From assembly GCA_902781705.1 (NCBI GenBank), contig CACZKE010000012.1, positions 24,151 to 88,150 on the forward strand: 64,000 nt of DNA, in the 5' to 3' direction. Shown one piece after another: positions 17,601 to 36,240 of the stretch. How positions within the stretch are numbered: position 1 is the stretch's first letter; the number at the start of each line of letters is the position of its first letter. Both the position numbers and the translations under genes were made by a program. The DNA is from an uncultured Bacteroidia bacterium. GTDB taxonomy: Bacteria > Bacteroidota > Bacteroidia > Bacteroidales > UBA932. The notes beneath the pieces were generated by a model, which saw only the letters and a program-made list of their open reading frames with translations, searched no databases and was not told where the DNA came from.

Positions 17601-18178
17601 TTCAGGGCGTCGAAAGCCGTCTCGATCAGCAGCACGTCCACGCCCCCCTCGATAAGGGCTTCCGCCTGCTCGCGGTAACTCTCCGCCATGTCGTCGAAAC
17701 TGTACGGCCTTTCAGCCGGGCGGGCGATGTCCGGGGCGAGCGTCAGCGACTTGGACGTCGGCCCCATGCTGCCGGCCACCCAGACCTTCCGGGGGGCGCC
17801 GGTCCCGTCATGCCCGGCCTGACCGGGCATCTGCATCGCACGGTCCGCACACGTCCGGGCGATCCGGGCCCCCGCGAGGGCCATTTCCCGCGCCCGGGCC
17901 GCCAGCCCGTACTCCTTCTGGGAGATCCGGTTAGCGCTGAAGGTGTTCGTTTCGATGATATCGGCTCCGGCATCGATATAGGCCTCATGGACGGCCGCGA
18001 TGACGTCCGGCCGCGTCAGGTTCAGGCACTCGTTGTTCCCTTTCAGTGGCGTGGGGACATCTTCGAAGGCGCCCCGGCGGAAGTCTTCTTCCGTCAGGGA
18101 ATACTGTTGGATCTGGGTCCCGGTCGCCCCGTCCAGGCGGAGCACCCGTTCCCGAAGGGCTTGCTGTAAGTTCGTCAT
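14672..18178 (-). CDS. metH: Cobalamin-dependent methionine synthase
   Basis: The protein has 1168 residues with all four modules: homocysteine-binding barrel with Zn ligands (GVNCS and AGGCCG), pterin-binding barrel (NFTLIGERTNVAGS), cobalamin domain with the axial-histidine motif DVHDIGKN, and the C-terminal reactivation domain (KPAAGYASCPDHS). It transfers methyl from 5-methyl-THF to homocysteine. The start is the ATG at 18178; the frame runs further upstream but only through the opposite-strand-like reading of GH43. A TACCTTTG box ends five bases before the ATG, implying leaderless transcription, and there is no room for a B12 riboswitch. Three dispersed repeats are inserted in frame (15081-15099, 16190-16277, 17807-17832). 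Confidence 0.96.
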   Translation of the reverse strand: MTNLQQALRERVLRLDGATGTQIQQYSLTEEDFRRGAFEDVPTPLKGNNECLNLTRPDVIAAVHEAYIDAGADIIETNTFSANRISQKEYGLAARAREMALAGARIARTCADRAMQMPGQAGHDGTGAPRKVWVAGSMGPTSKSLTLAPDIARPAERPYSFDDMAESYREQAEALIEGGVDVLLIETAFDALNVKAALYAVQQVKDGFPVIVSVSVGDRSGRTLTGQTLEAFYTAVRHYPLTAFGVNCSLGADGLLPLVKDIAAFSDVPVICYPNAGLPNELGGYDQTPQQMATQMARLDGLVNIAGGCCGTTPEHIAAFPTLSPAPLKEPSGSLTVSGLEAYLIDTEKRNFTLIGERTNVAGSRKFARLIAEGNYDAALEVAAGQIEGGASIIDINMDDGMLDGPRCMETFVRTLENDPAVAKAALMIDSSHWDCILAGLKNAQGKCIVNSISLKDGEAAFLEKAAEIHRLGAAMVVMAFDEEGQATTYEKKVAVAERAYRLLTGIGIPAEDIILDVNVLSIGTGIPEHDRYGIDFIEAVRWIKQNLPGVHTSGGISNLSFAFRGNNPVRSAMHAVFLYHAIRAGLDMAIVNPGMVLQYDDIEPELRTAVEDLILCRDPHATERLTAMLANENETSPRAPAGLGRSDNPVISSEAGGGVEKSLAQMLVTGRTEHLQEALMAALERLGSAVAVIEGPLMAGMEEVGKRFGEGKMFLPQVVKSAKVMKDAVAILEPYMLEGEHAAQRPVVIHATVKGDVHDIGKNIAGIVLRCNGFEVVDLGVMVDKETILEAAEKHHAALIGVSGLITPSLFQMEELCREMHARGLDTPLFIGGATTSALHTAVKLAPLYDHVFYAPDASAGAVLAKKCLRDREAFEAEQHAEQARIRALHEGRKSVPAAPGAGFDPGSYLRTVPEDIPLTEIPLEGLVPLFDWPMFRLVWGVRESAELTAEGQAVLDRMVRSGGVTVRIAARFFAARRKGDLIDLGPVKLPMLRQEEAPGRSLADFVPSDGTGPFGLFAVSVHQPALRQAQGPVGCDCDACHSDYDSMMERAVRVTLAEAASSWLDRRLEAWVPEGVRIAKPAAGYASCPDHSLKRDILRLLPEGIGITLTESCAMKPDAAICGFVVLHPEAGYPEIRHIGPAQYEQYAAARGLSPDEARTFLSHLL
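15081..15099. repeat. 19-bp dispersed palindromic element inside metH (family A, copy 2)
   Basis: CCCTGAGCTTGTCGAAGGG, an imperfect palindrome sharing the 17-base core with the fakA copy. On the minus strand it encodes LRQAQGP within the reactivation domain. Confidence 0.75.
16190..16277. repeat. Composite inverted element inside metH
   Basis: Starts with AGATTTCTCGACT, contains the family C core CTTCGCTCGAAATGACAG (16213-16230), then a second arm beginning GTCACTTCGACC (16235) and ending GGAGAAGTCTCG. The ends are roughly inverted copies of each other. It encodes about 29 in-frame residues between the pterin-binding and cobalamin-binding modules of MetH. Confidence 0.65.
17807..17832. repeat. 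26-bp palindromic element inside metH (family B, copy 1)
   Basis: Reads GTCATGCCCGGC, then CTGACCGGGCATCT. The arms ATGCCCGG and CCGGGCAT are a perfect inverted repeat. In the MetH protein it gives the in-frame insertion MPGQAGHD. A second copy lies in uvrA. Confidence 0.75.
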
Positions 18179-18183
18179 TGGGG

Positions 18184-18191
18184 CAAAGGTA
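18184..18191 (-). promoter_or_regulatory. -7 box of metH-metF
   Basis: TACCTTTG on the minus strand ends five bases before the metH ATG. With transcription starting about six bases past the box, the mRNA would begin at or next to the start codon. Confidence 0.6.
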
Positions 18192-18225
18192 CGGAAAATC
18201 GCTGAAAAACAGCGGGAGGAAACCG

Positions 18226-19830
18226 TCAGGAGCCGAAGCGGAAGTACCGGACGGACAGCGGAGCGCGGGATGCCACCAGATAGAGGTCCTCCCGATCCAG
18301 GACGGCGTCCTGGACGGGGATGGTGATTTCCTTCCACTTCCAACCCGTGTCCGGGAGGGTGGCGGAGGCGATGAGCGGCCCGTCCGGAGAGCCCTTCCTT
18401 ACTTCCAACACGCCTCCGGGACTGCCCGTAAAGATGCTGAGCGTCAGACTCTTCGGCGCTTCGGGGAAACTGAAATAGCGGTAGCAGGCCCATTGTCCGT
18501 CCTCCTGGAAGGAGACGTAGGAATAGGCCCCCTTCTTCAACTGGTAGATGCCTGGTTTCCGCCCGGTGGAATACTCCACGGCGCCGCCCGCCTGGACCGT
18601 ATCGCCGGTCCCGAAAGCGCCGCGCACGCCGGAGGTGCTCATCTTCACTTCCGGGATGGTCCCGTCTTCGTTGAAAACCATCGGCTCCAGGTTGGGCACC
18701 CGCGTCAGCCGAAGCCCCGGAACGCTCTTGTGATACTGCAGCCAGTATTTTCCCTGGAACGGCTCGAAACTGCCGTGGACATTGCCCGCGTTCGGGTAAT
18801 TGTGATTGGTCACGATGAGCCCCTGGTATGTATAGGGACCGAGCGGCTGCTTCGCGGTCAGGTAGGCCATCCGGGTGGGTACGGCGCCGTTTTCGGCAAC
18901 CTTTCCCGTGTTCTGGATGTAGATGTAGTAGTAGGTGTCGCCCCGTTTCCGGAGGGAAGGGCCTTCGAAGGGCTCGTTGTCCGTGGGCATGAAAGGAGTC
19001 ATGTCCCGCACGGTCTCCGGCAGGATGCGGGCATAGTCGTCCGGATCCAACTGAGCCACGATGAAACTGGGGAGGGCCAGATAGACCTTCCCGTCGTCGT
19101 CCACCAGGATGCCCGGGTCGATGTGCCCGAGTTCCTGGCCGTTCAGCGTGATGGTCCGGGCGTTCGAATAGGGCCCTTCCGGCCGGTCGGCATCCAGCAG
19201 GAAGACCTTCCCGTTGTTGGTACAGGTGGCCATGTGATACTTGCCCGTCCGGGGATCGCGGAACACGTCTGGAGCCCACAGCCGGATGCCGTCACCCTTA
19301 ACCTCTTCCGGGACATCCTTCAGGTTCAGGGCCTCCCCGGCATCGGTCCAGTGGAGCAGGTCGTCGGACCAGATGACATGGTAATTGTCCGAACACCACT
19401 CCACGCGGCCGTCGCTTCCCAGTCCGTCATAATTGTCCCGGGAACCGAAGATGTACATCCTTCCGTCGAAGACATGGGGCTCGCCGTCAGCGATATACAG
19501 GTCCCAGGTGGGCGGAAGGATGGGATTCTGGGCCTCGTAGCCCACGGTGACGAGGCAACTGTCCTTCGCCCCGGTGTGCGGGTTGCTTGCCATGATCCAG
19601 GCGTCGCCGTTTGCCATGGCCAGGACTTCGCCCCGGTCGTCTACCTGCGCCACTTTCCCGTCGGTCGATGTCCAGACAAGGCCGCGGGGAACCGTTCCGC
19701 TTACGTTGATCCGGACCCGGTCTCCGGCGTCCAGCATCGTGGCATCCCGGTCCAGGGACCAGGGCTCGTTCCCCGTCCCGCAGGAAACCAGGACGGACAG
19801 GGCGGTCAGAAGGGAAATGGCTCTTTTCAT
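18226..19830 (-). CDS. GH43-family glycoside hydrolase lipoprotein with BIG2-like domain
   Basis: The protein has 534 residues. A lipoprotein signal with lipobox LVSC (Cys17) is followed by a bacterial Ig-like domain (WTSTDGKVAQVDDRGEVLA), then a five-bladed beta-propeller with GH43 catalytic markers: the N-terminal Asp in IADGEPHVFDGR, the middle Asp in WAPDV and the general-acid Glu in FEGPSL. The C-terminal ~130 residues look like a CBM6-type jelly roll. Likely activity is alpha-arabinofuranosidase or beta-xylosidase on plant glycans at the cell surface. It overlaps the thioesterase gene by four bases (ATGA), an unexpected operon partner. Confidence 0.88.
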   Translation of the reverse strand: MKRAISLLTALSVLVSCGTGNEPWSLDRDATMLDAGDRVRINVSGTVPRGLVWTSTDGKVAQVDDRGEVLAMANGDAWIMASNPHTGAKDSCLVTVGYEAQNPILPPTWDLYIADGEPHVFDGRMYIFGSRDNYDGLGSDGRVEWCSDNYHVIWSDDLLHWTDAGEALNLKDVPEEVKGDGIRLWAPDVFRDPRTGKYHMATCTNNGKVFLLDADRPEGPYSNARTITLNGQELGHIDPGILVDDDGKVYLALPSFIVAQLDPDDYARILPETVRDMTPFMPTDNEPFEGPSLRKRGDTYYYIYIQNTGKVAENGAVPTRMAYLTAKQPLGPYTYQGLIVTNHNYPNAGNVHGSFEPFQGKYWLQYHKSVPGLRLTRVPNLEPMVFNEDGTIPEVKMSTSGVRGAFGTGDTVQAGGAVEYSTGRKPGIYQLKKGAYSYVSFQEDGQWACYRYFSFPEAPKSLTLSIFTGSPGGVLEVRKGSPDGPLIASATLPDTGWKWKEITIPVQDAVLDREDLYLVASRAPLSVRYFRFGS

Positions 19831-20225
19831 TGGGATAGTTGTGCGTATGTTTTCTGGATGAAACGTTCCTTGTCGATGATGAACCGCTCATGGGTCCCTT
19901 CGCCGATCAGGCCCTGCTCATCGTAGGCCGCCACCCGGAAGACGAGCCTCCGGCGGTCTATTTCGACGAGTTCGCTCTCGCACCGGACCTTCATGCCCAC
20001 GGGCGTGGCCTTGCAGTGTGAGACATCGACCCGGGTCCCCACGGTGTCCTGCCCGGGCTCCAGGTACGGCAGCACGCTCTCCAGGCAGGTCTTCTCCATG
20101 AGCCCGACCATCATGACAGTCGCATAGACGGGCACGTTGCCGGTACCGATCGCTTCCGCCGAGCGCTCTTCCGTGGAGAAAGACTCCAACTTATTCTTGA
20201 TCCCTGTCGTCAGCATAATGGGCAT
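19827..20225 (-). CDS. Hot-dog-fold thioesterase (FlK-like)
   Basis: The protein has 132 residues. The layout matches fluoroacetyl-CoA thioesterase-like proteins: VPVYATVMMVGLMEKTC carries the Thr and Glu positions and VSHCKATPVGMKV the conserved His. It should hydrolyse a small acyl-CoA thioester in the cytoplasm; the physiological substrate is unknown. A second in-frame ATG lies three codons in. It is separated by one base from the macro-like gene and overlaps GH43, so the three form one operon. Confidence 0.85.
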   Translation of the reverse strand: MPIMLTTGIKNKLESFSTEERSAEAIGTGNVPVYATVMMVGLMEKTCLESVLPYLEPGQDTVGTRVDVSHCKATPVGMKVRCESELVEIDRRRLVFRVAAYDEQGLIGEGTHERFIIDKERFIQKTYAQLSQ

Positions 20226-20226
20226 A

Positions 20227-20625
20227 TCAATGGGTGAAAGATTCCGGCAGGCAGATGTTCTCCACGGCCGTTGCGGCGGCGAACAGCGGCGCGATCTCGC
20301 TGTCCCGGAACCCGGCGATCCCGCAGCCGATCCGAGTCACGTAGAAGAACAGTTCGGGATGGGCCTTGGCAAAGTCGATGAAGGCATCCACGTAAGGTTT
20401 GATGGTCTCGACCCCGCCCTGCATCGTCGGGATGGCGTACGACTGGCCGCGCAGCCCCACTCCGCAGCCCATGACGGCTCCGAAGTTGCGGAACGCCTGG
20501 TACGCGGCCCCGCCCCCGTGCATCCCTGCCAGGTTGCTTCCGAAGACGAAGATCTCATCGGCCCGGAGTTCCGTAATCCTTTCCGGCGTAAACTCCGGCC
20601 TGGGTATGTCGTGATAGATTCTCAT
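20227..20625 (-). CDS. Macro-domain-like conserved hypothetical protein
   Basis: From the ATG at 20625 the protein has 132 residues. A TTG eight codons upstream is in frame but lies inside the -7 box, so it is rejected. The centre (IFVFGSNLAGMHGGGAAYQAF, then GVGLRGQSYAIPT) is a glycine-rich, macro-like ADP-ribose/nucleotide-binding pattern seen in a conserved family often found in phages and bacteria. Catalysis is unproven; ADP-ribose or nucleotide-metabolite binding is the likely role. It heads the operon with the thioesterase and GH43. Confidence 0.7.
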   Translation of the reverse strand: MRIYHDIPRPEFTPERITELRADEIFVFGSNLAGMHGGGAAYQAFRNFGAVMGCGVGLRGQSYAIPTMQGGVETIKPYVDAFIDFAKAHPELFFYVTRIGCGIAGFRDSEIAPLFAAATAVENICLPESFTH

Positions 20626-20646
20626 ATCGATGGTGCTAATGTTTTT

Positions 20647-20678
20647 CAAAAATACAAAATCCTGCTTTTTCCTGCAAA
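20647..20678 (-). promoter_or_regulatory. Promoter of the macro-like/thioesterase/GH43 operon
   Basis: The minus strand has TTTG (20675-20678), a 20-base spacer and TATTTTTG (20647-20654), close to the Bacteroidota consensus. It leaves a leader of about 15 bases before ATG 20625. Confidence 0.65.
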
Positions 20679-20730
20679 CGCGGGATTTCCTGCCCTGTCA
20701 AATTCGGTGCCTCTGCCCACACCCCTGCAT

Positions 20731-20876
20731 CCCAAAATTCGCAGCGCATCTTCCAGCGCTCCCTGCGTTCTGCAGCGAGCCCTCCGATGCTTTGCCCGCC
20801 AAAATTGCCGCACAGAGCATCTCGTTAAGGCGCCGAAGCGCTAGGGAGTTGTTTCCGCTGCTTTGCGAATTTTGGG
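20731..20876. repeat. 146-bp structured repeat downstream of the RAYT gene
   Basis: Bounded by a perfect 13-bp inverted repeat: CCCAAAATTCGCA at 20731-20743 and TGCGAATTTTGGG at 20864-20876. The interior shares blocks with the repeat on the other side of the transposase (CGATGCT.TGCC, AAAATGCCG-like, GCGAATTT.GGGTTGG) in the same orientation, so the transposase lies between direct copies of one imperfect element. Confidence 0.75.
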
Positions 20877-20882
20877 TTGGAA

Positions 20883-21848
20883 CTACATCCGGTCTTTCAC
20901 CTCATCGTACACCAGACCCGCCAGGCGTGCGATCTGCTTGATGGAACTGTTGTAGCGGCTCCGCAGGGTGCGGGCCAGCCGGAGTCGTTGCGGCATGCTG
21001 AGCTGCCTGACACTCGGGGTGCCGAACAGTTCCCGGCAGACTTCGTTTTTATGCTGGCGCATCTCCTGCATGGGAATCGACAGGAGCGAGATCGAGCCGC
21101 CGCGGGCGTCCACGTCCTCCTCCTTCGTGATGCTGAGGAAGAAATTGAAACTCTTACAGGTCTTGAAGATACGTTCCACGACCTCGTAGGCGACATACTC
21201 GCCCGGGAACACCAGCGGACCGATCATCCGGGGAGCGCGCCGGGCCAGTTCATCTTTCCGGGTACGCAGGGCTTTCCGGTGATCGACAACGCCCATGGAC
21301 CCGGCCTCTTTCGTTTCGTCCATCCACCGTGGTGAACTCCAATACCCGGGCCTTTTGAAATAGAGCGGACCGCTGGACCAGGGATAGTCGAGTGCGTTGA
21401 ACATGATACCGCCTGCGGGAGCGTTTTTCACGGTGTAGCAGATGACGGTCTTCAGGTAGGAATCAGTGTCCACCGCCTGGTGGTTGATGGGAACTCCATC
21501 CAGCTTGTTGCTTTCATGATGCGTCACGGATATGTACCAGGAGGTTCTGCGGACATATTCATGCATGAACCGGTTACATGCTTCGAAAGTGCCGTACAGG
21601 ATGAAATGCACATGGGTGTCCATCAGGGAAAAAGCCAGAATGACCACGTTGTAGTCCTGGATCACCATGTAAATCCGGTTCATCCCGGCGATGAAGTCAT
21701 CGTCGTCTTCGAACATGGCATCGACGGCGTTTCCGTCCGTGCTGAAATGCCAGCAGTTCTTGATTTTGATTTGACGTCCCTTGACGAACGGGACATGGAG
21801 CCCGAGATCGGCTTCGATCTGCGCGAGCAGTTTCTGATCTATCTTCAC
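20883..21848 (-). CDS. REP-associated tyrosine transposase (RAYT, Y1/HUH family)
   Basis: The protein has 321 residues. The HUH motif appears as THVHFILYG (His79, His81) with upstream IYMVIQDYNVVILAFSLMD, typical of TnpA_REP/IS200-like Y1 transposases. Tyr105 in the helix RRTSWYISVTH is the probable nucleophile. A C-terminal helix-turn-helix-like tail (IKQIARLAGLVYDEVKDRM) is longer than in IS200 and fits RAYTs. It starts at GTG 21848; no better ATG is present. It is flanked by two related structured repeats and has its own promoter. RAYTs mobilise or maintain REP palindromes as single-copy domesticated genes. Confidence 0.85.
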   Translation of the reverse strand: MKIDQKLLAQIEADLGLHVPFVKGRQIKIKNCWHFSTDGNAVDAMFEDDDDFIAGMNRIYMVIQDYNVVILAFSLMDTHVHFILYGTFEACNRFMHEYVRRTSWYISVTHHESNKLDGVPINHQAVDTDSYLKTVICYTVKNAPAGGIMFNALDYPWSSGPLYFKRPGYWSSPRWMDETKEAGSMGVVDHRKALRTRKDELARRAPRMIGPLVFPGEYVAYEVVERIFKTCKSFNFFLSITKEEDVDARGGSISLLSIPMQEMRQHKNEVCRELFGTPSVRQLSMPQRLRLARTLRSRYNSSIKQIARLAGLVYDEVKDRM

Positions 21849-21883
21849 GTTCTTTTCCGGCGCCTCTTGTGGCTGCTCTTTTA

Positions 21884-21914
21884 CAAAGATAGGTCAATCC
21901 TCCCGTTTTTGCAA
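21884..21914 (-). promoter_or_regulatory. Promoter of the RAYT gene
   Basis: TTGC (21911-21914), a 19-base spacer, then TATCTTTG (21884-21891) on the minus strand. The -33 box touches the edge of the upstream repeat, so the repeat may influence transposase expression. Confidence 0.65.
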
Positions 21915-22064
21915 CCCGATTTTTGCAGAGCATCCCAACCTGCGAATCCTGCGCTGTATGAGGCCTCCCGATGCTCTGCCAGGCAAAAATGCCGTGCAAA
22001 GCATCGTATAGTGGTGCCTATGCTATACAAAGCGGTTGACAATGCTTTACGAATTTCGGGTTGG
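21912..22064. repeat. 153-bp structured repeat upstream of the RAYT gene
   Basis: Ends are imperfect inverted repeats: CAACCCGATTTTTGCAGAGC at 21912 and its partner AATGCTTTACGAATTTCGGG ending in TTGG at 22064. It is homologous to the repeat at 20731-20876 and lies in the same orientation. It fills most of the gap between the transposase and iorA. Confidence 0.7.
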
Positions 22065-22174
22065 GGTGGTAGGGGAACAAGGAGCCGGGGCGGAGGGCTG
22101 AAGGAAATGGGGATGTGAGGAACGAAAGCCGTTATGAAATGGCTGCTTCCTGCGGATTTTCGCGGGAGAATCGT

Positions 22175-22182
22175 TATATTTG
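22175..22182 (+). promoter_or_regulatory. -7 box of the iorAB operon
   Basis: TATATTTG, 20 bases before the ATG at 22203. Earlier in-frame starts at 22134 lie upstream of this box and are rejected. Confidence 0.6.
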
Positions 22183-22202
22183 TCCGATTGGATAAAACGA
22201 AC

Positions 22203-23804
22203 ATGACAATGAAACGATTGCTGCTCGGGGACGAGGCGATTGCCTTGGGAGCGCTGTATGCCGGACTGTCCGGCGTGTATGCCTATCCGGGGACGCCGTC
22301 CACCGAGATTACGGAATTCATCCAGAACGATCCGCTCGCCCGGGAAAGGGGCGTGCGCAGCCGCTGGTGTACGAACGAGAAAACGGCCATGGAGGCGGCT
22401 CTGGGCATGTCCTATGCCGGGAAGCGCGCCCTGGTGTGCATGAAGCATGTGGGCATGAATGTCTGTGCCGATGCCTTCGTCAATGCCGCCATCACCGGCG
22501 TGAAGGGCGGCCTGGTGGTCGTCGCGGCCGACGATCCGTCGATGCACTCTTCCCAGAATGAGCAGGATTCCCGCTTCTACGGGAAGTTCGCCCTGATTCC
22601 CATCCTGGAACCTTCCGACCAGCAGGAGTGCTTCGACATGATGGCCGATGCCTTCCGCCTCTCGGAGGCGGTGAGGCTGCCGGTCCTTGTACGCATCGTC
22701 ACTCGCCTGGCGCATTCCCGCGCCGGGGTGGCAGTGGGGGAACCGGCTGTCGAGAATGCCCTGGTGCCCGACAATGAGCGCACCCGCTGGGTCCTCCTGC
22801 CCGGTAATGCCAAACGGCAATACGCCGCCCTTGTGGACAAGCAGCCGGAACTGCTCCTTCGGGCGCAGGATTCCCGCTGGAACGCTTTGGAGGATGCGGG
22901 CTCGCCCCTCGGTGTCATCGCCTGCGGGATTGCCTGCAATTATGTACGGGAGGCCCTTCCCGACGAAGTGTCCGTCCTGAAAGTCTCCCAGTATCCGCTT
23001 CCGGAGAGTCTTGTCCGGGAACTCGCCGCTTCCTGTGAGGAGATCCTCGTGGTGGAAGACGGCCAGCCCTTCGCCGAGGAGCAAGTACGGGGGCTGCTGG
23101 ACCCGGAGTATCCGGTCCATGGCCGCCTGGACGGCCACCTTCCCCGCACCGGCGAACTCACGCCGGACAGCGTGGCGGAGGCCCTGGGCCAGCCCGCCGG
23201 ACAAGTGCATCTGCCGGCCCGGAACCTGGCCCCGCGTCCGCCGCAACTCTGCCAGGGATGCGGCCACCGGGATGTCTATGCGGCCCTGAACGCCGTCCTG
23301 AAAGGTTTCCCTGAGGCCCGGGTGTTCGGCGACATCGGCTGCTACACCCTGGGTGCCCTTCCGCCGTACCGGGCCATCGACACCTGCGTGGACATGGGCG
23401 CTTCCATCACCATGGCGAAGGGCGCTGCCGACGCGGGCGTCCATCCCGCCGTCGCGGTCATCGGCGACTCCACCTTCACCCACAGCGGCATGACCAGTCT
23501 CCTGGATGCGGTCAATGACAAAGCCGCCATCACCGTCATCCTCTCCGACAACCTGACGACGGCCATGACCGGCGGCCAGGATTCCGCGGGCACGCACAAG
23601 TTCGAGGCCATCTGCCTGGCCCTCGGCGTGGAACGGGAGCACCTCCATGTGGTCGTCCCGCTTCCGAAGAATATGGAGGAGATTACCCGCATCATCCGCG
23701 AAGAACTTGAGTATAAGGGCGTTTCTGTCATTATTCCCCAGCGGGAATGCATGCAGACGCTGGCGCGGAAGAACCGGCAGATTTCTCGACTTCGCTCGAA
23801 ATGA
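22203..23804 (+). CDS. iorA: Indolepyruvate ferredoxin oxidoreductase, alpha subunit
   Basis: The protein has 533 residues from ATG 22203 (MTMKRLLLGDEAIALGAL); a second ATG two codons later is also possible. It has the IorA order: pyrimidine domain with YPGTPSTEITEF, then the thiamine-diphosphate domain with CQGCGHRDVY, GDIGCYTLG and the Mg/TPP motif GDSTFTHSG. It oxidatively decarboxylates aryl-2-oxo acids to aryl-acetyl-CoA with ferredoxin. No C-terminal CxxCxxCxxxC ferredoxin domain, present in archaeal IorA, is seen. The last residues and the TGA stop are encoded by a dispersed family C repeat (23779-23807). Confidence 0.93.
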   Translation: MTMKRLLLGDEAIALGALYAGLSGVYAYPGTPSTEITEFIQNDPLARERGVRSRWCTNEKTAMEAALGMSYAGKRALVCMKHVGMNVCADAFVNAAITGVKGGLVVVAADDPSMHSSQNEQDSRFYGKFALIPILEPSDQQECFDMMADAFRLSEAVRLPVLVRIVTRLAHSRAGVAVGEPAVENALVPDNERTRWVLLPGNAKRQYAALVDKQPELLLRAQDSRWNALEDAGSPLGVIACGIACNYVREALPDEVSVLKVSQYPLPESLVRELAASCEEILVVEDGQPFAEEQVRGLLDPEYPVHGRLDGHLPRTGELTPDSVAEALGQPAGQVHLPARNLAPRPPQLCQGCGHRDVYAALNAVLKGFPEARVFGDIGCYTLGALPPYRAIDTCVDMGASITMAKGAADAGVHPAVAVIGDSTFTHSGMTSLLDAVNDKAAITVILSDNLTTAMTGGQDSAGTHKFEAICLALGVEREHLHVVVPLPKNMEEITRIIREELEYKGVSVIIPQRECMQTLARKNRQISRLRSK

Positions 23805-23853
23805 CAGAGGGCACTTCGCTTGAAATGACAGAGGGCACTTCGCTCGAAATGAC
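23779..23853. repeat. Family C element followed by two tandem partial copies at the iorA-iorB junction
   Basis: A full 29-bp copy (23779-23807) starts AGATTTCTCGACT and ends AATGACAG. Two partial copies with the core CACTTCGCTCGAAATGACA follow at a 24-base period (starting at about 23812 and 23836). It supplies the iorA stop codon and forms the whole iorA-iorB spacer. Confidence 0.75.
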
Positions 23854-23860
23854 AAGGAAC

Positions 23861-24436
23861 ATGAAAACAGATATCAAATTAGCCGGTGTGGGAGGGCAGG
23901 GGATCCTGTCCATCGCAACGGTGCTCGGCGAGGCCGCGACGGCCGCCGGCCTGTATCTCAAGCAGGCCGAAGTACACGGCATGAGCCAGCGGGGCGGGGA
24001 CGTGCAAAGCGACCTGCGCCTCTCGACGGAACCCATTTTCAGCGACCTCATCCCCCAGGGCGGGGCCGACCTGATCCTGTCCATGGAGCCCATGGAGGCG
24101 CTCCGTTACCTGCCCTACCTGGCTGAGGGTGGTGCGGTCGTCACATCCTCCAAACCTTTTGTCAATATCCCCGACTATCCCGCCGAGACGGAACTCCTCT
24201 CGGAACTGGACGCCCTTCCGAAGGTGGTCAGGATGGACATCGAGGCCGTTGCCAAGGGGTTGCTGGCCCCCCGCAGCGCGAACATGGTGCTCCTGGGCAT
24301 GGCGGCGCCGCATATCGGCATCCTCTCTCCGGAGGATCTCCGGCAGGCCATCCGCACCGTTTTCGCCCGCAAGGGAGAGAAGGTCGTGGAAGACAATCTG
24401 AAAGCATTCGACGCAGGACATGAAGGTATTCAGTGA
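23861..24436 (+). CDS. iorB: Indolepyruvate ferredoxin oxidoreductase, beta subunit
   Basis: The protein has 191 residues from ATG 23861; the longer frame only reads the repeat and is rejected. KLAGVGGQGILSIATVLGEAA is the conserved nucleotide/CoA-site start of the gamma/beta-type subunit of 2-oxoacid oxidoreductases, and HGMSQRGGDVQSDLR is diagnostic. It pairs with IorA. It overlaps the aminotransferase gene by 17 bases. Confidence 0.93.
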   Translation: MKTDIKLAGVGGQGILSIATVLGEAATAAGLYLKQAEVHGMSQRGGDVQSDLRLSTEPIFSDLIPQGGADLILSMEPMEALRYLPYLAEGGAVVTSSKPFVNIPDYPAETELLSELDALPKVVRMDIEAVAKGLLAPRSANMVLLGMAAPHIGILSPEDLRQAIRTVFARKGEKVVEDNLKAFDAGHEGIQ

Positions 24437-28246: not shown

Positions 28247-28249
28247 CTT

Positions 28250-28284: not shown

Positions 28285-28336
28285 TTATCCAGTCCTTTCC
28301 GGCGGCAGTAGGCACGGGAATGTAGGAAGAAATTCG

Positions 28337-28344
28337 TATATTTG
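28337..28344 (+). promoter_or_regulatory. -7 box of the secreted amidotransferase-like gene
   Basis: TATATTTG, 18 bases before ATG 28363. The in-frame TTG at 28342 lies inside the box and cannot be the start. Confidence 0.6.
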
Positions 28345-28362
28345 ACGGAAACAGAGGAACCT

Positions 28363-29664: not shown

Positions 29665-29668
29665 GTCC

Positions 29669-30091
29669 TTACTTGACCTCGATCTGCTTCTTGGCTTTCT
29701 CTACCTCGACCTTGCGGATCTTGGGGATGTTCACCGTGAGGACGCCGTTCTCGACCTTGGCCTCGATGGCCTCGCGGTCGGCGTCTTCCGGAAGCAGCAT
29801 CGTCTGCTGGAACTTGGTGTAGGAGAATTCGCGGCGCAGGTAGTGGCCCTTGTGGCCTTCCTTGTTCTCGGCCTTCTTCTCCATGTTGATCACCAGGTCT
29901 CCTTCTTCGTCCAGATGGACGTTGAAGTCTTCCTTGGTCATGCCCGGGGCGGCGAGTTCCAGTTCATAGGCCTCCGGCGTCTCGATCACGTTGATGGCCG
30001 GTGCAGTCGCTTTCGGACGGTCCATCCAGTTGTTGTCGAAGAAATCGTTGAAGATGTCGGGCATCCAGCCATTGTGTCTTGCGGGTAACAT
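29669..30091 (-). CDS. Small heat-shock protein, Hsp20/alpha-crystallin
   Basis: The protein has 140 residues. The alpha-crystallin domain (about 35-130) includes YELELAAPGMTKEDFNVHL and the conserved ENGVLTVNIPK near the end; the expected I-x-I-type tail is present as IEV. It is an ATP-independent holdase chaperone. Unlike most genes here it has a clear Shine-Dalgarno (GGAGGT, seven bases before ATG). The upstream 100 bases contain a GTTCCC/GGGAAC hairpin (30132-30148) that could act in the leader. Confidence 0.94.
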   Translation of the reverse strand: MLPARHNGWMPDIFNDFFDNNWMDRPKATAPAINVIETPEAYELELAAPGMTKEDFNVHLDEEGDLVINMEKKAENKEGHKGHYLRREFSYTKFQQTMLLPEDADREAIEAKVENGVLTVNIPKIRKVEVEKAKKQIEVK

Positions 30092-30253
30092 AGTAACCTC
30101 CTATTTTTATTCGTTTAACTTTCCATTTCACGTTCCCTCGGTGGGAACCGTGTTCGCCGCAAGAAAGGCAAATCCGGGACCAAGCCCCGAAAATGGACAA
30201 AATGGCAGATATAACTGACTAAATGTCAATTAGTTATGACAAATTGGCTGGTT

Positions 30254-30285
30254 TTTGGCCATTTCGTCCGAAAAGCGTACCTTTG
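30254..30285 (+). promoter_or_regulatory. Promoter of the UpxY-like gene
   Basis: TTTGG (30254-30258) and TACCTTTG (30278-30285), spacer 19-20. The box ends eight bases before the ATG, so the leader is almost absent. Confidence 0.65.
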
Positions 30286-30293
30286 CAAAAGCG

Positions 30294-30902
30294 ATGGAAC
30301 AACAGCCCGAACTGCACTGGTACGCCCTCAAGGTTTTCTACAACAAGGTCTTCGAGATGGAGGCCCTGACGGATTCCATGGGCCTGGAGAGTTTCATCCC
30401 GGTCCGGAGGGAGCAGGTCAAGGGGGATGAGCACCTGAGAGTTGCGAAAAGACTGGCCACGCCGGACGACCGCCGGCTGGATAACCAGTTCCAGAAAGTA
30501 GGTCCTGTGATCTACAAGCGGATCCCTGTGGTGAATTCCCTGTTCTTCGTCCATGCGCCCGAGGAGCGCATCCCCGAACTCGAGCATGCCATCCAGGGCC
30601 AGGGCTTCGTCTATCGCATGACGGACCACCAGCGCCCGTCCGTCATCCCGGACAAGGAAATGGGGATTTTCAAACTGGTCTGCACCTCGGGCGCGGAAGG
30701 GTTGGAATTCTTTGCCGACGAGGACATGACCCGCTATAAGCAAGGGGACAGGGTCCGCGTGCTGGAAGGTCCGTTGAAGGGGGCGGAAGGCTATATCCGG
30801 CGGATCCGGAAGGACCGCCGCCTGCTCGTCGCCATCGAAGGATTCATCGCCGTGGCGACATCCTTCATTCCACCTCAATTTCTTGCCAAGGCAGAAGATT
30901 GA
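30294..30902 (+). CDS. UpxY-family NusG-like transcription antiterminator
   Basis: The protein has 202 residues from ATG 30294. The N-terminal NGN domain (about 7-120, beginning LHWYALKVFYNKVFEMEAL) and C-terminal KOW domain (YKQGDRVRVLEGPLKGAEGYI) match the specialised NusG paralogues that let capsular-polysaccharide operons of Bacteroides be read through. Such genes are normally first in the operon they control, but the next gene is on the opposite strand and overlaps this one by 38 bases. It is therefore an orphan that may act in trans, for example on the glycosyltransferases at 36-40 kb, which is inference. Confidence 0.85.
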   Translation: MEQQPELHWYALKVFYNKVFEMEALTDSMGLESFIPVRREQVKGDEHLRVAKRLATPDDRRLDNQFQKVGPVIYKRIPVVNSLFFVHAPEERIPELEHAIQGQGFVYRMTDHQRPSVIPDKEMGIFKLVCTSGAEGLEFFADEDMTRYKQGDRVRVLEGPLKGAEGYIRRIRKDRRLLVAIEGFIAVATSFIPPQFLAKAED

Positions 30903-31866
30903 GCCAGTCGTAGAAGAATCCGAAGGAGAACGGGACTGCGAGGCAGAGGAGTTTCCACCAGCCCGGCAGCACGATCAGCCACAGCAGGACCATGACCGGC
31001 AGACCGAACATCCGGATCATGGACCGGACGGTATTGCGCCAGGCCGGATCCTTCAACTTCTTTTGACACAGATATTCCGCAGCGGCCCAGAGGGGAAGGG
31101 TCAGGATGGCGCTGACGAGGGAAAGGGGCGACAGGATCACCGCCAGGGGGATGTTCGTCTTGTGCGGGGGCTTGACTTCCGCCAGGCGCGCCTCGTAGTT
31201 CTCATCGTCGGGAATGTACAGGATCAGTTCCTTCATCCGGTTGAAAAGCAGTTCCCGGAAGTCCTTGTAAGTCTCCGCCTCCGTACAGTCCTTATGCTTT
31301 GCCAGGAAGGCGTTCACGTCGATGGGTTCGCCGTACCGGATGTCGCAAGTCGTCCTGAAATGGAAGTAATCTCCGTACTCGATGCCGGTAGGGACCACCC
31401 AGGTCTGACGTTTCCCGGCGCTCGCGAAAGCGATGCGGGCGATGCCCTTCTGGATGGGCAGGAGGGAGTGCTTGGGCCGATGCCGCCCTTCGGCGAACAT
31501 GCAGAAGGGAGTGCCCTCGGCCAGGATGCCGTCCACTTCCCGGAAGGTCTCCAGGTTCTGAAGCACGGCGGCGGCGCCGTTGCGGATACGGGCCAGCGGC
31601 AGGATGTGCAGGAAGCGGAGGAACTTCTCCACGGCGGGTTTCTTGAACACGTCGGAACGGGCCCCGAAGGAGGTGGCGGTCTTCCGGCTGCGGAGGATCA
31701 CGAGCGGATCCATCAGCGTATTCGTATGGTTCGGGGCGATGAGGACGGCGCCGTCCTGCGGGATGGCCCCTTTTATGGTCGTCCGGGAGTAACTACGACC
31801 CGTATTGCAGTCGCACCAAAACTTCAGGATGCGATAGAGGAACTCTCTTTTGCGGTTTTTCTCCAT
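30865..31866 (-). CDS. PlsC-like lysophospholipid acyltransferase
   Basis: The protein has 333 residues. The acyltransferase block is NHTNTLMDP (His with Asp six positions on, a variant of HX4D common in this Bacteroidota subfamily), with FAEGRHRPKHSLLPIQKG as motif III. A C-terminal ~100-residue region has three or four hydrophobic segments. It likely acylates lysophosphatidate or another lysolipid at the inner membrane. It overlaps the BASS gene upstream by 43 bases and the UpxY gene convergently. Confidence 0.85.
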   Translation of the reverse strand: MEKNRKREFLYRILKFWCDCNTGRSYSRTTIKGAIPQDGAVLIAPNHTNTLMDPLVILRSRKTATSFGARSDVFKKPAVEKFLRFLHILPLARIRNGAAAVLQNLETFREVDGILAEGTPFCMFAEGRHRPKHSLLPIQKGIARIAFASAGKRQTWVVPTGIEYGDYFHFRTTCDIRYGEPIDVNAFLAKHKDCTEAETYKDFRELLFNRMKELILYIPDDENYEARLAEVKPPHKTNIPLAVILSPLSLVSAILTLPLWAAAEYLCQKKLKDPAWRNTVRSMIRMFGLPVMVLLWLIVLPGWWKLLCLAVPFSFGFFYDWLNLLPWQEIEVE

Positions 31867-32801
31867 GATTTACGGTTGAAGTAGAAGGCTGCGGCCAGCC
31901 CGGAAACGATGTGCCAGATACCCCACCAGGCCGTGATGACGAGCATGCCGCCGTGAGGCGGGAAATTCGCGAAGAGGGGCGTGCCCAGCAGGAGCACGAG
32001 GCCCAGTCCGGAATTCTGGATGCCGGTCTCGATGGTCAGGGTGCGCTTGTCGGCTTCGGGGAGCCGGAAGATGGCGGCGACGTTATAGCCGATGGTCAGG
32101 GCCAGGAGGTTGTGGACCAGCACGATCAGGAAGATGTATTTGATGCACTTCAGGAAGGCGTCCATGTTGCCGGCGAAGGACAGGATGACCATCGCGATGA
32201 AAAAGGCGATGGAGATATATTGGAGGGGCTTCTTGAGGAAGTCCGCCACCTTCGGGAGGTACCGGGCGGTCAGGATGCCTGCCGCGAGCGGAATGCCCAG
32301 CAGGATAAAGATGGTCCGGAACACGTCCATCAGCGGGATGGCCAGGGTGGGGATGTCGGCATGGACGGCAGCGAAATGCAGGTAGGCATTGCCCCAGAGC
32401 CAGAAGTTGAACGGGGTCATCACGACGGCAAGGGCCGTGGAGATGGCGGTGAGGCTCACGGAAAGTTCGACATTGGCCTTGGCCAGGGAGGACATGAAGT
32501 TGGAGATGTTCCCGCCGGGACAGGAGGCCACCAGGATCATGCCCAGGCCCATCATCGGGGAGATCCACCGGCTGATGAGGATGGCGAGCAGGCAGGTGAA
32601 GGCAGGCAGCAGGACGAGCTGGCACGTGGCGCCCAGGATGACGGACTTGGGCTTTTTGAACACGTCCACGAAGATGCCCGGCTTGATGCCCAGCGAGACG
32701 CCGTACATGACGAAGGCGAGCACGATGTTGATGGTGTTCATCCCACCGGCGTTCAGGGTTACCTGGATCTGGTCGATGGCGGCAGCGGTTTCAGGTGACA
32801 T
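31824..32801 (-). CDS. Bile acid:sodium symporter (BASS) family transporter
   Basis: The protein has 325 residues and about nine to ten hydrophobic helices. Family blocks ASCPGGNISNFMSSLAKANVELSV and TIETGIQNSGLGLVLL contain the crossover motifs that form the sodium and substrate sites. It probably imports an organic anion with Na+, which fits the Na+-pumping NQR operon in this window. The substrate (bile acid, pantothenate or another) is unknown. It follows msrA after 18 bases. Confidence 0.85.
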   Translation of the reverse strand: MSPETAAAIDQIQVTLNAGGMNTINIVLAFVMYGVSLGIKPGIFVDVFKKPKSVILGATCQLVLLPAFTCLLAILISRWISPMMGLGMILVASCPGGNISNFMSSLAKANVELSVSLTAISTALAVVMTPFNFWLWGNAYLHFAAVHADIPTLAIPLMDVFRTIFILLGIPLAAGILTARYLPKVADFLKKPLQYISIAFFIAMVILSFAGNMDAFLKCIKYIFLIVLVHNLLALTIGYNVAAIFRLPEADKRTLTIETGIQNSGLGLVLLLGTPLFANFPPHGGMLVITAWWGIWHIVSGLAAAFYFNRKSWRKTAKESSSIAS

Positions 32802-32819
32802 ATCGGTCTGGGGTTCTGG

Positions 32820-33320
32820 TTAACTGTCTTGGGCGATCTTGAAAATGGCGGGGGAGAGGTGGCAGTACCCGGTGGGGTTTTTCTCCAGGTACTCCTGGTG
32901 GTACTCCTCGGCCTTGTAGAAGTTCCTGAGGGGAAGGAGTTCCACGGCAAGGGGCTGTCCCAGGGCGGCGGCACAGCGGTCCAGGGCGGCCTTGATGGGC
33001 GGAACCTGCTCTTCGGAAACGAAGTAAACGCCTGTGCGGTAGCGCGTTCCTTCATCCTCGCCCTGCTTGTTCAGACTCAGCGGGTCGATGGCTTTCAGGA
33101 ACAGGTCGGTGAGCTTTTCCTCGCCGATGACCGCGGTGTCGTATCGCAGGTGGACGGTCTCGGCATAGCCGGTCTGGTCCGTATAGACTTCCTTGTACGT
33201 GGGGTTTTCGGTAAAGCCGTTGGCGAAGCCCACCTCGGTGAAGGTGACTCCCTTCACCAGGGAGAAGAATCTCTGGGCGCCCCAGAAGCAGCCGGCGGCG
33301 AAATAGAGGTCTTTGGTCAT
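32820..33320 (-). CDS. msrA: Peptide-methionine (S)-S-oxide reductase
   Basis: The protein has 166 residues from ATG 33320; the longer frame runs through the divergent promoter and is rejected. The catalytic motif GCFWG (Cys11) is near the N-terminus, with the expected Glu and Tyr in later blocks (GYAETVHLRYD). It repairs oxidised methionine. The C-terminus YCHLSPAIFKIA is typical. Confidence 0.95.
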   Translation of the reverse strand: MTKDLYFAAGCFWGAQRFFSLVKGVTFTEVGFANGFTENPTYKEVYTDQTGYAETVHLRYDTAVIGEEKLTDLFLKAIDPLSLNKQGEDEGTRYRTGVYFVSEEQVPPIKAALDRCAAALGQPLAVELLPLRNFYKAEEYHQEYLEKNPTGYCHLSPAIFKIAQDS

Positions 33321-33341
33321 GCCTTGTTTATAAACATCCTT

Positions 33342-33371
33342 CAAAAATACGCAAAAAAATCCGTAACTTTG
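33342..33371. promoter_or_regulatory. Divergent -7 boxes for msrA and uvrA
   Basis: The minus strand reads TATTTTTG at 33342-33349, serving msrA; the plus strand reads TAACTTTG at 33364-33371, 19 bases before the uvrA ATG. No clear -33 boxes. Confidence 0.6.
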
Positions 33372-33390
33372 CAATCTTATCGATTCGGAT

Positions 33391-36240
33391 ATGCCGGCAG
33401 AAGGAAATATCATCATCAGAAGGGCGAAAGTCAACAACCTCAAGGACATTACGGTAGAGATTCCGCGGAACCGCCTCGTCGTGGTCACGGGCATCTCCGG
33501 CAGCGGAAAATCCTCCCTGGCGTTCGACACCCTCTTCGCCGAGGGGCAGCGCCGTTTCGCCGAGAGTCTCTCCTCCTACGCCCGGCAGTTCCTGGGCCGG
33601 ATGTCCAAGCCCGACGTGGAGATGATCGAGGGCATTCCGCCCGCCATCGCCATCGAGCAGAAGGTCAATATCCGGAATCCCCGTTCCACCGTCGCCACCA
33701 CGACGGAAATCTACGATTACCTGCGCCTGCTGTTTGCGCGCATCGGCCGCACCTATTCGCCCGTGAGCGGGGAAGAGGTGAAGGCCCATACCGTTCAGGA
33801 CGTCCTCGGGGACATCTTCGACGGTGCCCCGCACATGGTCTATATCCTTTCGGACCTGCAATGGAAGGACCGGGAAGACCGGGTAGAACTGATGCTCTCC
33901 CTCAAGGAGGAAGGCTACGGCCGCCTGTTCCAGGTGGACGCGCAGCAGGTTTACGATATCGAAGAGGTCATGCAGATGGGCGCCGATGCCCCGGATGACC
34001 TGTTCCTGCTGGTGGACCGTGTGAAGATTCCCGGTCAAGCCGGGAATGACGAGGCCGTCATGACGGACCTGGCGGACCGGCTCGAAGACCTCCGGACCCG
34101 GCTCCACGCCTCCGTCCAGGCCGCCTTCGACAAGGGGAACGGCGACATGGCCATCATCAAGGACGGTATTCGGAAGGAATTCTGTTCGCGGTTCGAAAAG
34201 GACGGGCTGACCTTCCGGCAGCCGGACGAGTACCTGTTCAGCTTCAACAGCCCGCTGGGCGCCTGCCCGGTGTGCGGCGGCCTGGGGAAGATCATCGGCA
34301 TCAGCGAGGACCTCGTGGTCCCGGACAAGACCAAGAGCATCTACGACGGCGCCATCGCCTGCTGGCGGGGCGAGAAGATGAGTTGGTTCAAGGACCTTGT
34401 GGTGAAGAACGCCGAGAAGTACGGCATCCCCGTATTCGAACCCTACTGCAAACTCACGGAGAAGCAGAAACGCACCCTCTGGGAGTCCCGGGCCACGATG
34501 GACGACGAAACGACGATCGTGGGCATCGACGAATTCTTCGAGTGGGTCAACGCGAACCGTTACAAGATCCAGTACAAATACATGCTCAGCCGTTACTCCG
34601 GCCGGACCACCTGCCACGAATGCGGCGGGAGCCGGCTTCGGAAGGAGGCGCTGTACGTGAAAGTGGGCGGCAGGACCATCCACGAATATATGTCCATGAC
34701 CATCGACGACCTGGTCCGCTGCATCGACACGCTCGAACTGACGGAGTACGAACGCGGCGTTGCCGGCAAGGCGCTGGAGGAGATCTCCTACCGCCTCCGC
34801 TGCATCCAGGACGTGGGTCTGGGCTATCTGACCCTGAACCGGACCATGAACACGCTGTCCGGCGGCGAAAGCCAGCGGGTGAACCTCGTGACCGCCCTGG
34901 GAAGTTCCCTTGTGGGCTCCATGTACATCCTGGACGAGCCGTCGATCGGCCTGCATCCGCGGGACACCGACCGGCTGATCGAGGTCCTCAAGCGGCTTCG
35001 GGACATCGGCAATACCGTCGTCGTGGTGGAGCACGACCCGGAGATCATCCGGGCGGCGGACCTGCTGATCGACATGGGCCCCAAGGCGGGTGTCCATGGC
35101 GGCGAAGTCGTCTTCCAGGGCCTTTCCGACCACATTACGGAGGAGGAACTCAAGCGTTCCCTGACGCTGCAGTACCTGACCGGGGAGCGGAAACCCTATA
35201 TCCGGGAGAAGCGGCACTGGCAGTATTCCATCACGGTCAACGGGGCCATGCAGAACAACCTCAAGGACATCGACGTCCAGTTCCCGCTGGGCGTGCTGAC
35301 CGTCGTCACCGGCGTGTCCGGCAGCGGCAAGTCCTCCCTCGTGGGGGACATCCTGTACCCGGCCCTCAAGCGTCGGATCAACGAGACCGGCGACCTGCCG
35401 GGCACCTTCAAGGGCCTCTCTGGCAACCTGGACCGCGTCACCCGGGTGGAATACGTGGACCAGAACCCCATCGGCAAGAGTTCCCGGTCCAATGCCGTCA
35501 CCTACCTGAAGATCTACGACGACATCCGCAAACTCCTGAGCGACCAGCAGTTCGCGAAGATCAACGGTTTCACCCCGTCCTATTTCTCCTTCAACCAGGA
35601 CGGCGGCCGCTGCCCCGAGTGCCAGGGCGACGGCTTCGTGAAGATCGGCATGCAGTTCATGGCCGACGTGACGATGGTGTGCGAGTCCTGCGGCGGCAAG
35701 CGCTTCAAGCCCGAGATCCTGGAAGTCCGCTACAAAGACAAGAATGTCGATGACATCCTGAACATGAGCGTAGAGGAGGCCATCGCCTTCTTCGGCGCCC
35801 AGAAGGAGGACCTGGCGAAGGCCATCGCCGCCGACCTGCAGCCCCTCGTGGACGTGGGCCTGGGGTACATCAAGCTGGGACAGCCGTCCAGCACGCTCTC
35901 GGGCGGTGAAAGCCAGCGCATCAAACTCGCTTACTTCCTGAGCCTGAGCAAGGGAGAGGACCGTCCGCGGAAGGACCGGATCCTCTTCATCTTCGACGAG
36001 CCCACGACGGGCCTGCATTTCTACGACGTGGAGAAACTCCTGAAGGCCTTCGACGCCCTCCTTTCCCGCGGCCATTCGGTCGTGGTGGTGGAGCACAACC
36101 TGGACGTGATCCGGAGCGCCGACTGGGTGATCGACCTGGGTCCGGACGCCGGCGACCAGGGCGGGGAAGTGGTCTTCGCCGGCACGCCGGAGGACCTGGC
36201 AGCCAAGGGAGACACCTTCACGGCCCGATACTTGCGGTAA
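33391..36240 (+). CDS. uvrA: Excinuclease ABC subunit A
   Basis: The protein has 949 residues. It has two ABC ATPase modules, each with Walker A (GISGSGKSSL near 32; GVSGSGKSSL near 645), two zinc-binding clusters (CPVCGG and CHECGG region; CPECQGDG and CESCGG), and signature/Walker B pairs (LSGGESQRVNL with LDEPSIGLH; LSGGESQRIKL with FDEPTTGLH). It is the damage-recognition subunit of nucleotide excision repair. Residues about 212-219 (IPGQAGND) are encoded by a 26-bp palindromic element (34025-34050) inserted in frame. Confidence 0.98.
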   Translation: MPAEGNIIIRRAKVNNLKDITVEIPRNRLVVVTGISGSGKSSLAFDTLFAEGQRRFAESLSSYARQFLGRMSKPDVEMIEGIPPAIAIEQKVNIRNPRSTVATTTEIYDYLRLLFARIGRTYSPVSGEEVKAHTVQDVLGDIFDGAPHMVYILSDLQWKDREDRVELMLSLKEEGYGRLFQVDAQQVYDIEEVMQMGADAPDDLFLLVDRVKIPGQAGNDEAVMTDLADRLEDLRTRLHASVQAAFDKGNGDMAIIKDGIRKEFCSRFEKDGLTFRQPDEYLFSFNSPLGACPVCGGLGKIIGISEDLVVPDKTKSIYDGAIACWRGEKMSWFKDLVVKNAEKYGIPVFEPYCKLTEKQKRTLWESRATMDDETTIVGIDEFFEWVNANRYKIQYKYMLSRYSGRTTCHECGGSRLRKEALYVKVGGRTIHEYMSMTIDDLVRCIDTLELTEYERGVAGKALEEISYRLRCIQDVGLGYLTLNRTMNTLSGGESQRVNLVTALGSSLVGSMYILDEPSIGLHPRDTDRLIEVLKRLRDIGNTVVVVEHDPEIIRAADLLIDMGPKAGVHGGEVVFQGLSDHITEEELKRSLTLQYLTGERKPYIREKRHWQYSITVNGAMQNNLKDIDVQFPLGVLTVVTGVSGSGKSSLVGDILYPALKRRINETGDLPGTFKGLSGNLDRVTRVEYVDQNPIGKSSRSNAVTYLKIYDDIRKLLSDQQFAKINGFTPSYFSFNQDGGRCPECQGDGFVKIGMQFMADVTMVCESCGGKRFKPEILEVRYKDKNVDDILNMSVEEAIAFFGAQKEDLAKAIAADLQPLVDVGLGYIKLGQPSSTLSGGESQRIKLAYFLSLSKGEDRPRKDRILFIFDEPTTGLHFYDVEKLLKAFDALLSRGHSVVVVEHNLDVIRSADWVIDLGPDAGDQGGEVVFAGTPEDLAAKGDTFTARYLR
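34025..34050. repeat. 26-bp palindromic element inside uvrA (family B, copy 2)
   Basis: Read on the minus strand it is GTCATTCCCGGC, then TTGACCGGGAATCT. It is the same length as the metH copy and matches it at 23 of 26 positions; two of the three differences change both members of one stem pair, preserving the palindrome. Confidence 0.75.

Follow-up and report, generated by a model that had tools for sequence, protein, structure and literature searches.

CGTC-tagged REP hairpins lying in frame within metH and uvrA of an uncultured Bacteroidales bacterium

Two in-frame palindromes in metH and uvrA

The window, that is, the whole stretch of 64,000 nucleotides analysed here (G000:C12:24151-88150), belongs to a draft genome of 3.07 Mb in 43 contigs, that of an uncultured gut bacterium. 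The sequences closest to its UvrA come from uncultured Bacteroidales, many of them ruminant-derived, with Candidatus Cryptobacteroides at about 72% identity. Pfam identified two conserved genes in open frames: metH, for a B12-dependent methionine synthase, at 14675..18115 on the minus strand (the frame used for comparisons, read from stop to stop), and uvrA, for the 949-aa excinuclease ABC subunit A, at 33391..36240 on the plus strand, which was compared with 80 relatives. Each gene contains a short hairpin unit. The metH unit occupies 17806..17832 on the plus strand, the gene being on the minus strand, and has the stem ATGCCCGG/CCGGGCAT and the loop CCTGA; the uvrA unit occupies 34025..34051 on the minus strand, the gene being on the plus strand, and has the stem ATTCCCGG/CCGGGAAT and the loop CTTGA.

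A sequence-only reading of the window had described two palindromes of 26 bp that agree at 23 positions and differ at one stem pair, and these observations were reproduced as stated. Read in the same orientation, GTCATGCCCGGCCTGACCGGGCATCT (plus strand, 17807-17832) and GTCATTCCCGGCTTGACCGGGAATCT (minus strand, 34025-34050) are identical at 23 of 26 positions, with mismatches at positions 6, 13, and 22. Positions 6 and 22 form one stem pair (G-C versus T-A), and position 13 lies in the loop. The length had to be revised: a core of 26 bp is present in both genes, but an additional invariant 5' C (17806; 34051 on the minus strand) is part of the element, which is therefore 27 bp long, and the net gains of the two genes are 42 and 39 nt. 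Each unit consists of CGTC, stem, loop, and a tail up to the final T, and the A of GTCA is base 1 of the 8-bp stem. The metH unit encodes QMPGQAGHD (aa 95-103 of the frame used) and the uvrA unit KIPGQAGND (UvrA aa 212-220). PGQAG is thus read in frame in genes that are unbroken, as had been claimed, with frames open and Pfam matches kept.

Alignment with relatives, which the same reading had proposed, showed that the inserts were missing from nearly all relatives compared, for UvrA and MetH alike. The sister species G003 is collinear with the window over the metH region, and its metH (L131; 82-85% identity) lacks the insert, a net gain of 42 nt in the window. The insert was absent from all 24 aligned relative rows that cover the site; the same residues in relatives, named beforehand as the observation that would count against an insertion, were found in 0 of the 24. 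Two other kinds of REP accompany the CGTC unit in the window's MetH, one of TCGAGCGAAG type at 16189-16228, within the linker that precedes the B12-binding domains, and one of TTCGACAAGCTCAGG type at 15082-15098. The G003 gene shares the latter and carries inserts of its own, TRFLDSAR and a TTCGACAAGC unit, the second of these in the linker before the B12-binding domains.

These additional palindromes also occur elsewhere. The TTCGACAAGCTCAGG type is a second in-frame palindrome family, present in the window both in metH (15082-15098) and at 11044-11060 on the minus strand, inside an ORF at 9618-11219; in the uvrA of relative L052 such palindromes adjoin a CGTC unit (L052:2666, 2702). A third family (GTCATTTCGAGCGAAGTCGAGAAATCT type) is represented by the MetH linker copy at 16189-16228 and by 23778-23805, which lies at the start of an ORF at 23747-24436 whose early residues include SLEMTEGTSLEMTEGTSLEMTRN.

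At the uvrA site, IPGQAGNDEAVMTDLADRL in the window (57 nt) corresponds to TGREPD (18 nt) in the nearest relative (L050, 91% identity), a net difference of 39 nt. The REP is missing from seven of the eight nearest relatives (L050-L057); the exception, L052, carries it at that same junction, with two TTCGACA-type palindromes after it. L052 is the only one of the 80 relatives in which the window's site is occupied; a relative sharing these residues was therefore found here in one case, but it has them as the same REP. The two occupied sites, in the window and in L052, require two changes on the UvrA tree. In a structure model of UvrA (mean pLDDT 69.6), to be leaned on only lightly, most of the REP peptide falls in the turn that joins a strand (204-213) to a helix (221-248).

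A second unit may lie immediately beside the first. The segment 34056..34082 on the plus strand fits the REP consensus at 19 of 27 positions, and it is among only four placements in the window, both strands included, that reach at least 19/27 besides the two true copies. Its orientation is that of the eight intact tag-to-tag pairs of this genome and its spacing falls inside their range. Judged by these sequence features, it is probably the decayed tag-to-tag partner of the uvrA REP.

Anatomy, hosts, and kinship of the CGTC family

The sequence-only reading had proposed collecting all genomic copies and building a covariance model, and had named a lack of further copies as evidence against a repeat family. 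Genome-wide, 19 matches were obtained with a degenerate pattern that tolerated up to 3 mismatches, and 0 with the reversed control. A covariance model built from those 19 matches found 31 copies at E 3.6e-6 or better, the next match appearing only at E 0.15, which rules out that the two palindromes stand alone. The 31 copies form 23 loci. An unpaired CGTC tag is present at one end of all 31. Eight of the 23 loci are opposed pairs with the tags facing each other, and in all eight the two stems are unlike. The stem has 8 bp; among 15 distinct copies, pair 1 is A-T in every one and pair 2 is T-A in 13 and C-G in 2. The loop has 5 nt in 24 of the 31 copies, and the short unpaired tail is CT plus one variable base, with CC in 2/31. 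The unit is therefore a 27-bp hairpin with an invariant CGTC tag, a loop that is usually CTTGA or CCTGA and ends in GA, a TCT tail, and a stem defined by its pairing only. At E 0.001 or better, the model matched 59 of 199 genomes of the bacterial family, with a patchy distribution even within the genus; 38 candidates per genome were scored, so that per-genome counts level off near 38 and are to be read as "at least". Eight of the 31 copies lie together on G000:C35 (L160:7101-17220, L161:2210-2271), as four pairs in four genes over about 15 kb; the genes encode two MacB/FtsX permeases, an outer-membrane efflux protein, and an NtrC-like regulator.

In the 19-copy set (15 distinct rows), 119 of 120 stem cells pair (99.2%), and cells changed on both sides number 13 against 3.8 expected from shuffles, affecting four of the eight stem pairs. 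Pairing was also examined without a bias towards paired stems, in a search of 28 genomes that specified just the tag, the loop, and the tail and left 12 inner stem positions free. Fifteen CGTC-bearing genomes gave 5-76 matches each and the other 13 gave 0 or 1; the reversed control gave 0 in the window's own genome and 0 or 1 in the 27 others. Stems were tallied by hand, and checked against the per-genome counts, for 150 matches listed, 148 of them from six CGTC-bearing genomes (all matches of G143, G234, G074, G092, and G189 plus 32 of the 76 of G211) and two from CGTC-poor genomes; among the matches listed, the other nine CGTC-bearing genomes contribute none. In the 148, 861 of 888 inner stem cells pair. 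Ten different perfect stems account for 119 of these listed copies, stems with G-U pairs for 6 (5 types), and broken stems for 23 (17 types), and the loop is CTTGA in 107. When distinct arms are compared, 171 of 192 cells pair, against a shuffled mean of 125.5 (sd 5.2), while in the two matches from CGTC-poor genomes only 2 of 12 cells do. These results show that the propagating family keeps its pairing, tag, and loop, and that the stem sequence is free.

The sequence-only reading had taken the G-C/T-A difference as a palindrome conserved by selection on structure while its sequence drifted. This explanation is not supported, since the TTCCCGG and TGCCCGG stems, which are the uvrA and metH stem types, are abundant subfamilies (29 and 28 perfect copies, respectively, among the 148 matches listed), and 23 of the 148 break pairs. 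Because both stems are abundant, the change is very likely older than both insertions and did not arise as compensatory drift in place. CGTC copies outside metH and uvrA do decay, as the broken pairs in those 23 listed copies show. The accompanying claim, that the hairpin implies either a function or a mobilisation mechanism that recognises it, is retained in its second half: the stem kept at family level fits mobilisation, but metH and uvrA gave no sign of a function.

Pfam-recognised frames contain 24 of the 31 copies, in 16 genes read from stop to stop. Besides metH and uvrA, the hosts are a PHP-domain gene (weak match, E 5.9e-6), dTDP-glucose dehydratase, an ABC ATPase, an amidohydrolase, a FabA-like gene, a PG_1098-type gene, a ketoacyl synthase (C-terminal tail only), an HI0933-like flavoprotein, two MacB/FtsX permeases, an outer-membrane efflux protein, an NtrC-like regulator, UDP-GlcNAc 2-epimerase, and an endonuclease/phosphatase. 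The remaining seven copies are intergenic or unclear, and one of them lies directly 5' of a uvrD frame. Nineteen intragenic copies have 26 nt; PGQAG is read in 10, VIPGLTGN in 7, RHSRLDRES in 2, and RFPVKPGM in none, all four of these frames being open. Five more intragenic copies are of a 27-nt type with 6-nt loops. If four frames were equal and independent, at least 17 of 19 copies in the two leading frames would be expected with p about 4 in 10,000, a value computed after the counts had been seen and from paired units that are not independent. Because the frames skew to PGQAG and VIPGLTGN though all four are open, the bias points to a filter at the protein level.

Comparison with solved homologues in five cases showed extra residues at the REP in UDP-GlcNAc 2-epimerase and in the NtrC linker, and no net extra length at the REP in the dehydratase and the HI0933-like protein; for the ABC ATPase the homologue was too distant to judge. 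Some units thus seem to replace native residues instead of adding to them. Since the gains of 42 and 39 nt exceed the unit, yet two copies add no length, insertion is not a plain addition of 27 bp, and native residues may be replaced or lost at some insertions. In the dehydratase (L192:1494-2846, minus strand), about 25 residues after the REP, within residues 218-242, have no counterpart in the solved homologue.

Small dispersed repeats of cyanobacteria are elements of similar size that spread within a genome; the units described here have about the same size, a likeness of general description. A closer match is found in the CGTC-tagged REPs of Di Nocera, De Gregorio and Rocco (2013; PMC3733652), who list Bacteroidetes among the phyla concerned. 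According to that paper, members of the superfamily have stems of 8-9 bp with AT-complementary positions 1-2, loops of 4-5 nt, and tails that are mostly CCA; families 1-2 have 8-bp stems and families 2-4 have 5-nt loops. Our units share with them the CGTC tag, the 8-bp stem starting with A-T pairs, the 5-nt loop, the opposed pairs with unlike stems, and intragenic copies, uvrA included. They differ in that the tail is CT plus a variable base rather than mostly CCA, that 7 of 31 copies have 6-nt loops, and that about three quarters of the copies are intragenic, while most of the REPs described there are intergenic. The elements are CGTC-tagged REPs, an already described kind.

The resemblance to Rickettsia palindromic elements noted in the sequence-only reading holds at the superfamily level: PMC3733652 identifies the intragenic RPE-4 and RPE-6 of R. 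conorii as CGTC-4 and CGTC-1 REPs and names the longer RPE-1 class as a different insertion. As expected of Rickettsia palindromic elements, the units described here lie in frame in conserved genes and are missing from nearly all relatives compared. The units differ from RPE-4/RPE-6 in host phylum and in REP family, the kinship being that drawn from the description in PMC3733652. With GTAG REPs and REPINs, as described in PMC3116915 and PMC6006769, they have in common short hairpins, an unpaired tag, opposed pairs, and RAYTs in the same genomes; in contrast, the tag here is CGTC and most RAYTs examined were unflanked.

Candidate enzymes for moving the units

We propose, with a probability of roughly 0.75, that the units are copies of CGTC-tagged REPs that were moved by a hairpin-recognising enzyme acting on single-stranded DNA and were then filtered by selection at the protein level. 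The enzyme would act in trans and be specific for single-stranded DNA; it may be a HUH transposase of RAYT type. It would recognise the tag and the hairpin, copy or move single units or opposed pairs through a single-stranded intermediate, and insert them blindly with respect to genes. Selection would retain only those in-frame insertions that fall in a flexible loop or an interdomain linker and whose reading frame is tolerable, in most cases one of the Pro/Gly-rich frames xPGQAGxD and VIPGLTGN. The differences among relatives would then be gains rather than losses, and the peptides would be neutral.

RAYTs are REP-associated tyrosine transposases. A more specific proposal is that they mobilise the CGTC units that flank their own genes, as with GTAG REPs; we regard this as possible yet doubtful. 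A RAYT profile matched 22 of 28 genomes, with a median of 8 match rows in the 15 CGTC-bearing genomes and 1 in the 13 CGTC-poor ones, medians that are not corrected for kinship. The strongest case is the RAYT of G211:C33 (L299), which has five CGTC units per side, 595-763 bp upstream and 30-196 bp downstream; these sit in a longer directly repeated stretch. Its orthologue in G189:C32 (L292) has one unit 73 bp downstream, and the RAYTs of G077:C22 (L277) and G003:C32 (L311) have units on both sides. Such double flanking of L299, L277, and L311 sets the present family apart from the CGTC REPs of PMC3733652, for which neither a dedicated transposase nor a RAYT flanked by CGTC units is reported there.

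Against this proposal, a CGTC hairpin lies less than 500 bp from only 7 of the 81 RAYTs scanned in 13 CGTC-bearing genomes. The 81 derive from 99 match rows, of which 12 belong to the window's own genome and are covered by a separate scan of 11 loci, five were excluded (four from G143, one from G189), and two represent one gene; the scanner allowed one mismatch, and the rows G234:C43 and G092:C26 look spurious yet are counted in the distance bins. RAYTs with near units are scattered over the RAYT tree, although the G189/G211 clade includes four whose units lie no more than 600 bp away. The other 8 of the 9 RAYTs of CGTC-rich G003 have no CGTC unit in the flanks scanned, nor have the seven of CGTC-free G136, a genome with 16 RAYT match rows and zero CGTC copies; conversely, the model finds at least 38 copies in G044, where the RAYT profile has no match. 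The window's own genome has at least 11 divergent RAYT-like loci (L028-L038), in which 12 loose hairpins were found, none with the loop and stem of the CGTC family in the flanks scanned. By eye, many of these loci carry other repeats at their ends, and the GTAG-type arrangement of a cognate RAYT flanked by its repeat was found at 0 of the 11. Three further RAYT matches of this genome were scanned, one of which has a CGTC unit 841 bp away, inside another gene. A role of RAYTs in CGTC mobility is possible.

Other candidates were set aside. The window itself has, at 20883-21848 on the minus strand, a RAYT-like HUH protein with a weak Y1_Tnp match (E 0.016), which was rejected as a partner; its ends carry other repeats and no CGTC-family hairpin. 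Inverted arms of 37 nt, 78% complementary, lie at 20785-20821 and 21970-22006, and G003 has a homologue at the same place with 80.5% DNA identity. Three PDDEXK_2 genes of G077 and G058 (L165, L167, L175) have a CGTC unit nearby, about 110-195 bp upstream of the PDDEXK_2 frame (L165:4641, L167:1846, L175:9768-10739); G077 has a further copy of the gene on C30. A search of 28 genomes excludes this nuclease-transposase as a general partner: it was found neither in the window's own genome nor in CGTC-bearing G044, G074, G092, G143, and G235, and was present in 10 of 11 genus genomes without a CGTC model match. A GNAT acetyltransferase gene between two directly repeated CGTC pairs in G077:C22 (L166:359-1428) is not a transposase and was likewise discarded.

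Recurrent units in a UvrA linker and the retention of hairpins

The uvrA loci of 80 relatives, including flanks (528,562 bases in total), were scanned for CGTC elements. Elements were present in 12 of the 80 relatives, all 12 inside uvrA and none in the scanned flanks. Ten of the 12 lie in a single linker before SLTLQYL, in one orientation and one frame, with several stems and junctions; the window's uvrA has no CGTC element in this linker. On a UvrA tree (FastTree, the two variable sites left out, 21 of 78 inner branches open), the ten linker copies require nine changes, which under parsimony are gains or losses alike. Five relatives (L061, L068, L072, L080, L115) have SLGMT-like peptides in the same linker, which require five changes on the tree and, read by eye, appear to represent another REP family; the sisters L099 and L115 differ in the kind of linker insert. 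Several relatives thus appear to have gained REPs independently in the same flexible stretch of UvrA.

One explanation is that REP DNA is recruited again and again as linker material: insertion would be random, but at certain linkers, the one before SLTLQYL among them, there would be positive selection for the REP peptide. The ten occupied linkers with nine tree changes in one orientation and frame, the five relatives with peptides resembling another REP family, and the confinement of all 12 matches to the gene would fit such recruitment. However, the linker is variable anyway, so that tolerance alone would suffice, and the metH genes of relatives L133 and L135 also hold CGTC units, uvrA and metH having both been chosen because the window copies carry a REP. 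We therefore consider positive recruitment unlikely, and uvrA as a unique target is rejected. Mobilisation followed by protein-level filtering remains our preferred reading.

A bolder version joins the two subjects: the CGTC REPs would still be mobile, moved by flanking RAYTs of the L299/L292 type, and would repeatedly supply in-frame linkers at the same UvrA and MetH positions. We hold this combination to be rather improbable. If it were true, protein linkers would have arisen repeatedly from a selfish hairpin, and a name could be put to the missing transposase of CGTC REPs. CGTC REPs and the coding palindromes of Rickettsia share the questions of what moves them and why proteins tolerate them. 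In the Bacteroidales family, many species have been sequenced in which a given site is occupied or empty, including sisters that differ by single insertions, and the few doubly flanked RAYT loci are concrete candidates for the mobilising enzyme. Because such sites, candidate RAYTs, and a uvrA linker with about nine changes are at hand, both questions are testable, by comparison and by simple in vitro assays. The gene uvrA is already listed among REP-bearing genes of other organisms in PMC3733652. Its recurrent linker insertion and the doubly flanked RAYTs were not found in print among open-licence PMC papers, and are the new parts of this work.

It is also conceivable that the hairpin is retained in metH and uvrA as a working mRNA structure or protein module, both under selection. 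Only 1 of 248 stem cells in the own-genome copies is unpaired, a figure to be read with the preference of the model search for paired copies, and opposed pairs occur in eight genes. Nevertheless, the inserts are absent from sister species, the 16 host genes are diverse in kind, both stems are subfamilies whose copies elsewhere break pairs, and the probable second uvrA unit has decayed, so that this explanation is very improbable. That the matches are chance palindromes or artefacts of a draft assembly in 43 contigs has a negligible probability and is refuted by the counts, by controls of 0 here and 0 or 1 in 27 other genomes, and by the presence of the family in 59 of 199 genomes and in uvrA of 12 of 80 relatives from other records.

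Pairs of another geometry were observed in G189 and G211: at many loci, units of the TTCCGGA and TCCTGAA stem subfamilies stand tail to tail, as in a REPIN, with 41 bp between their starts.
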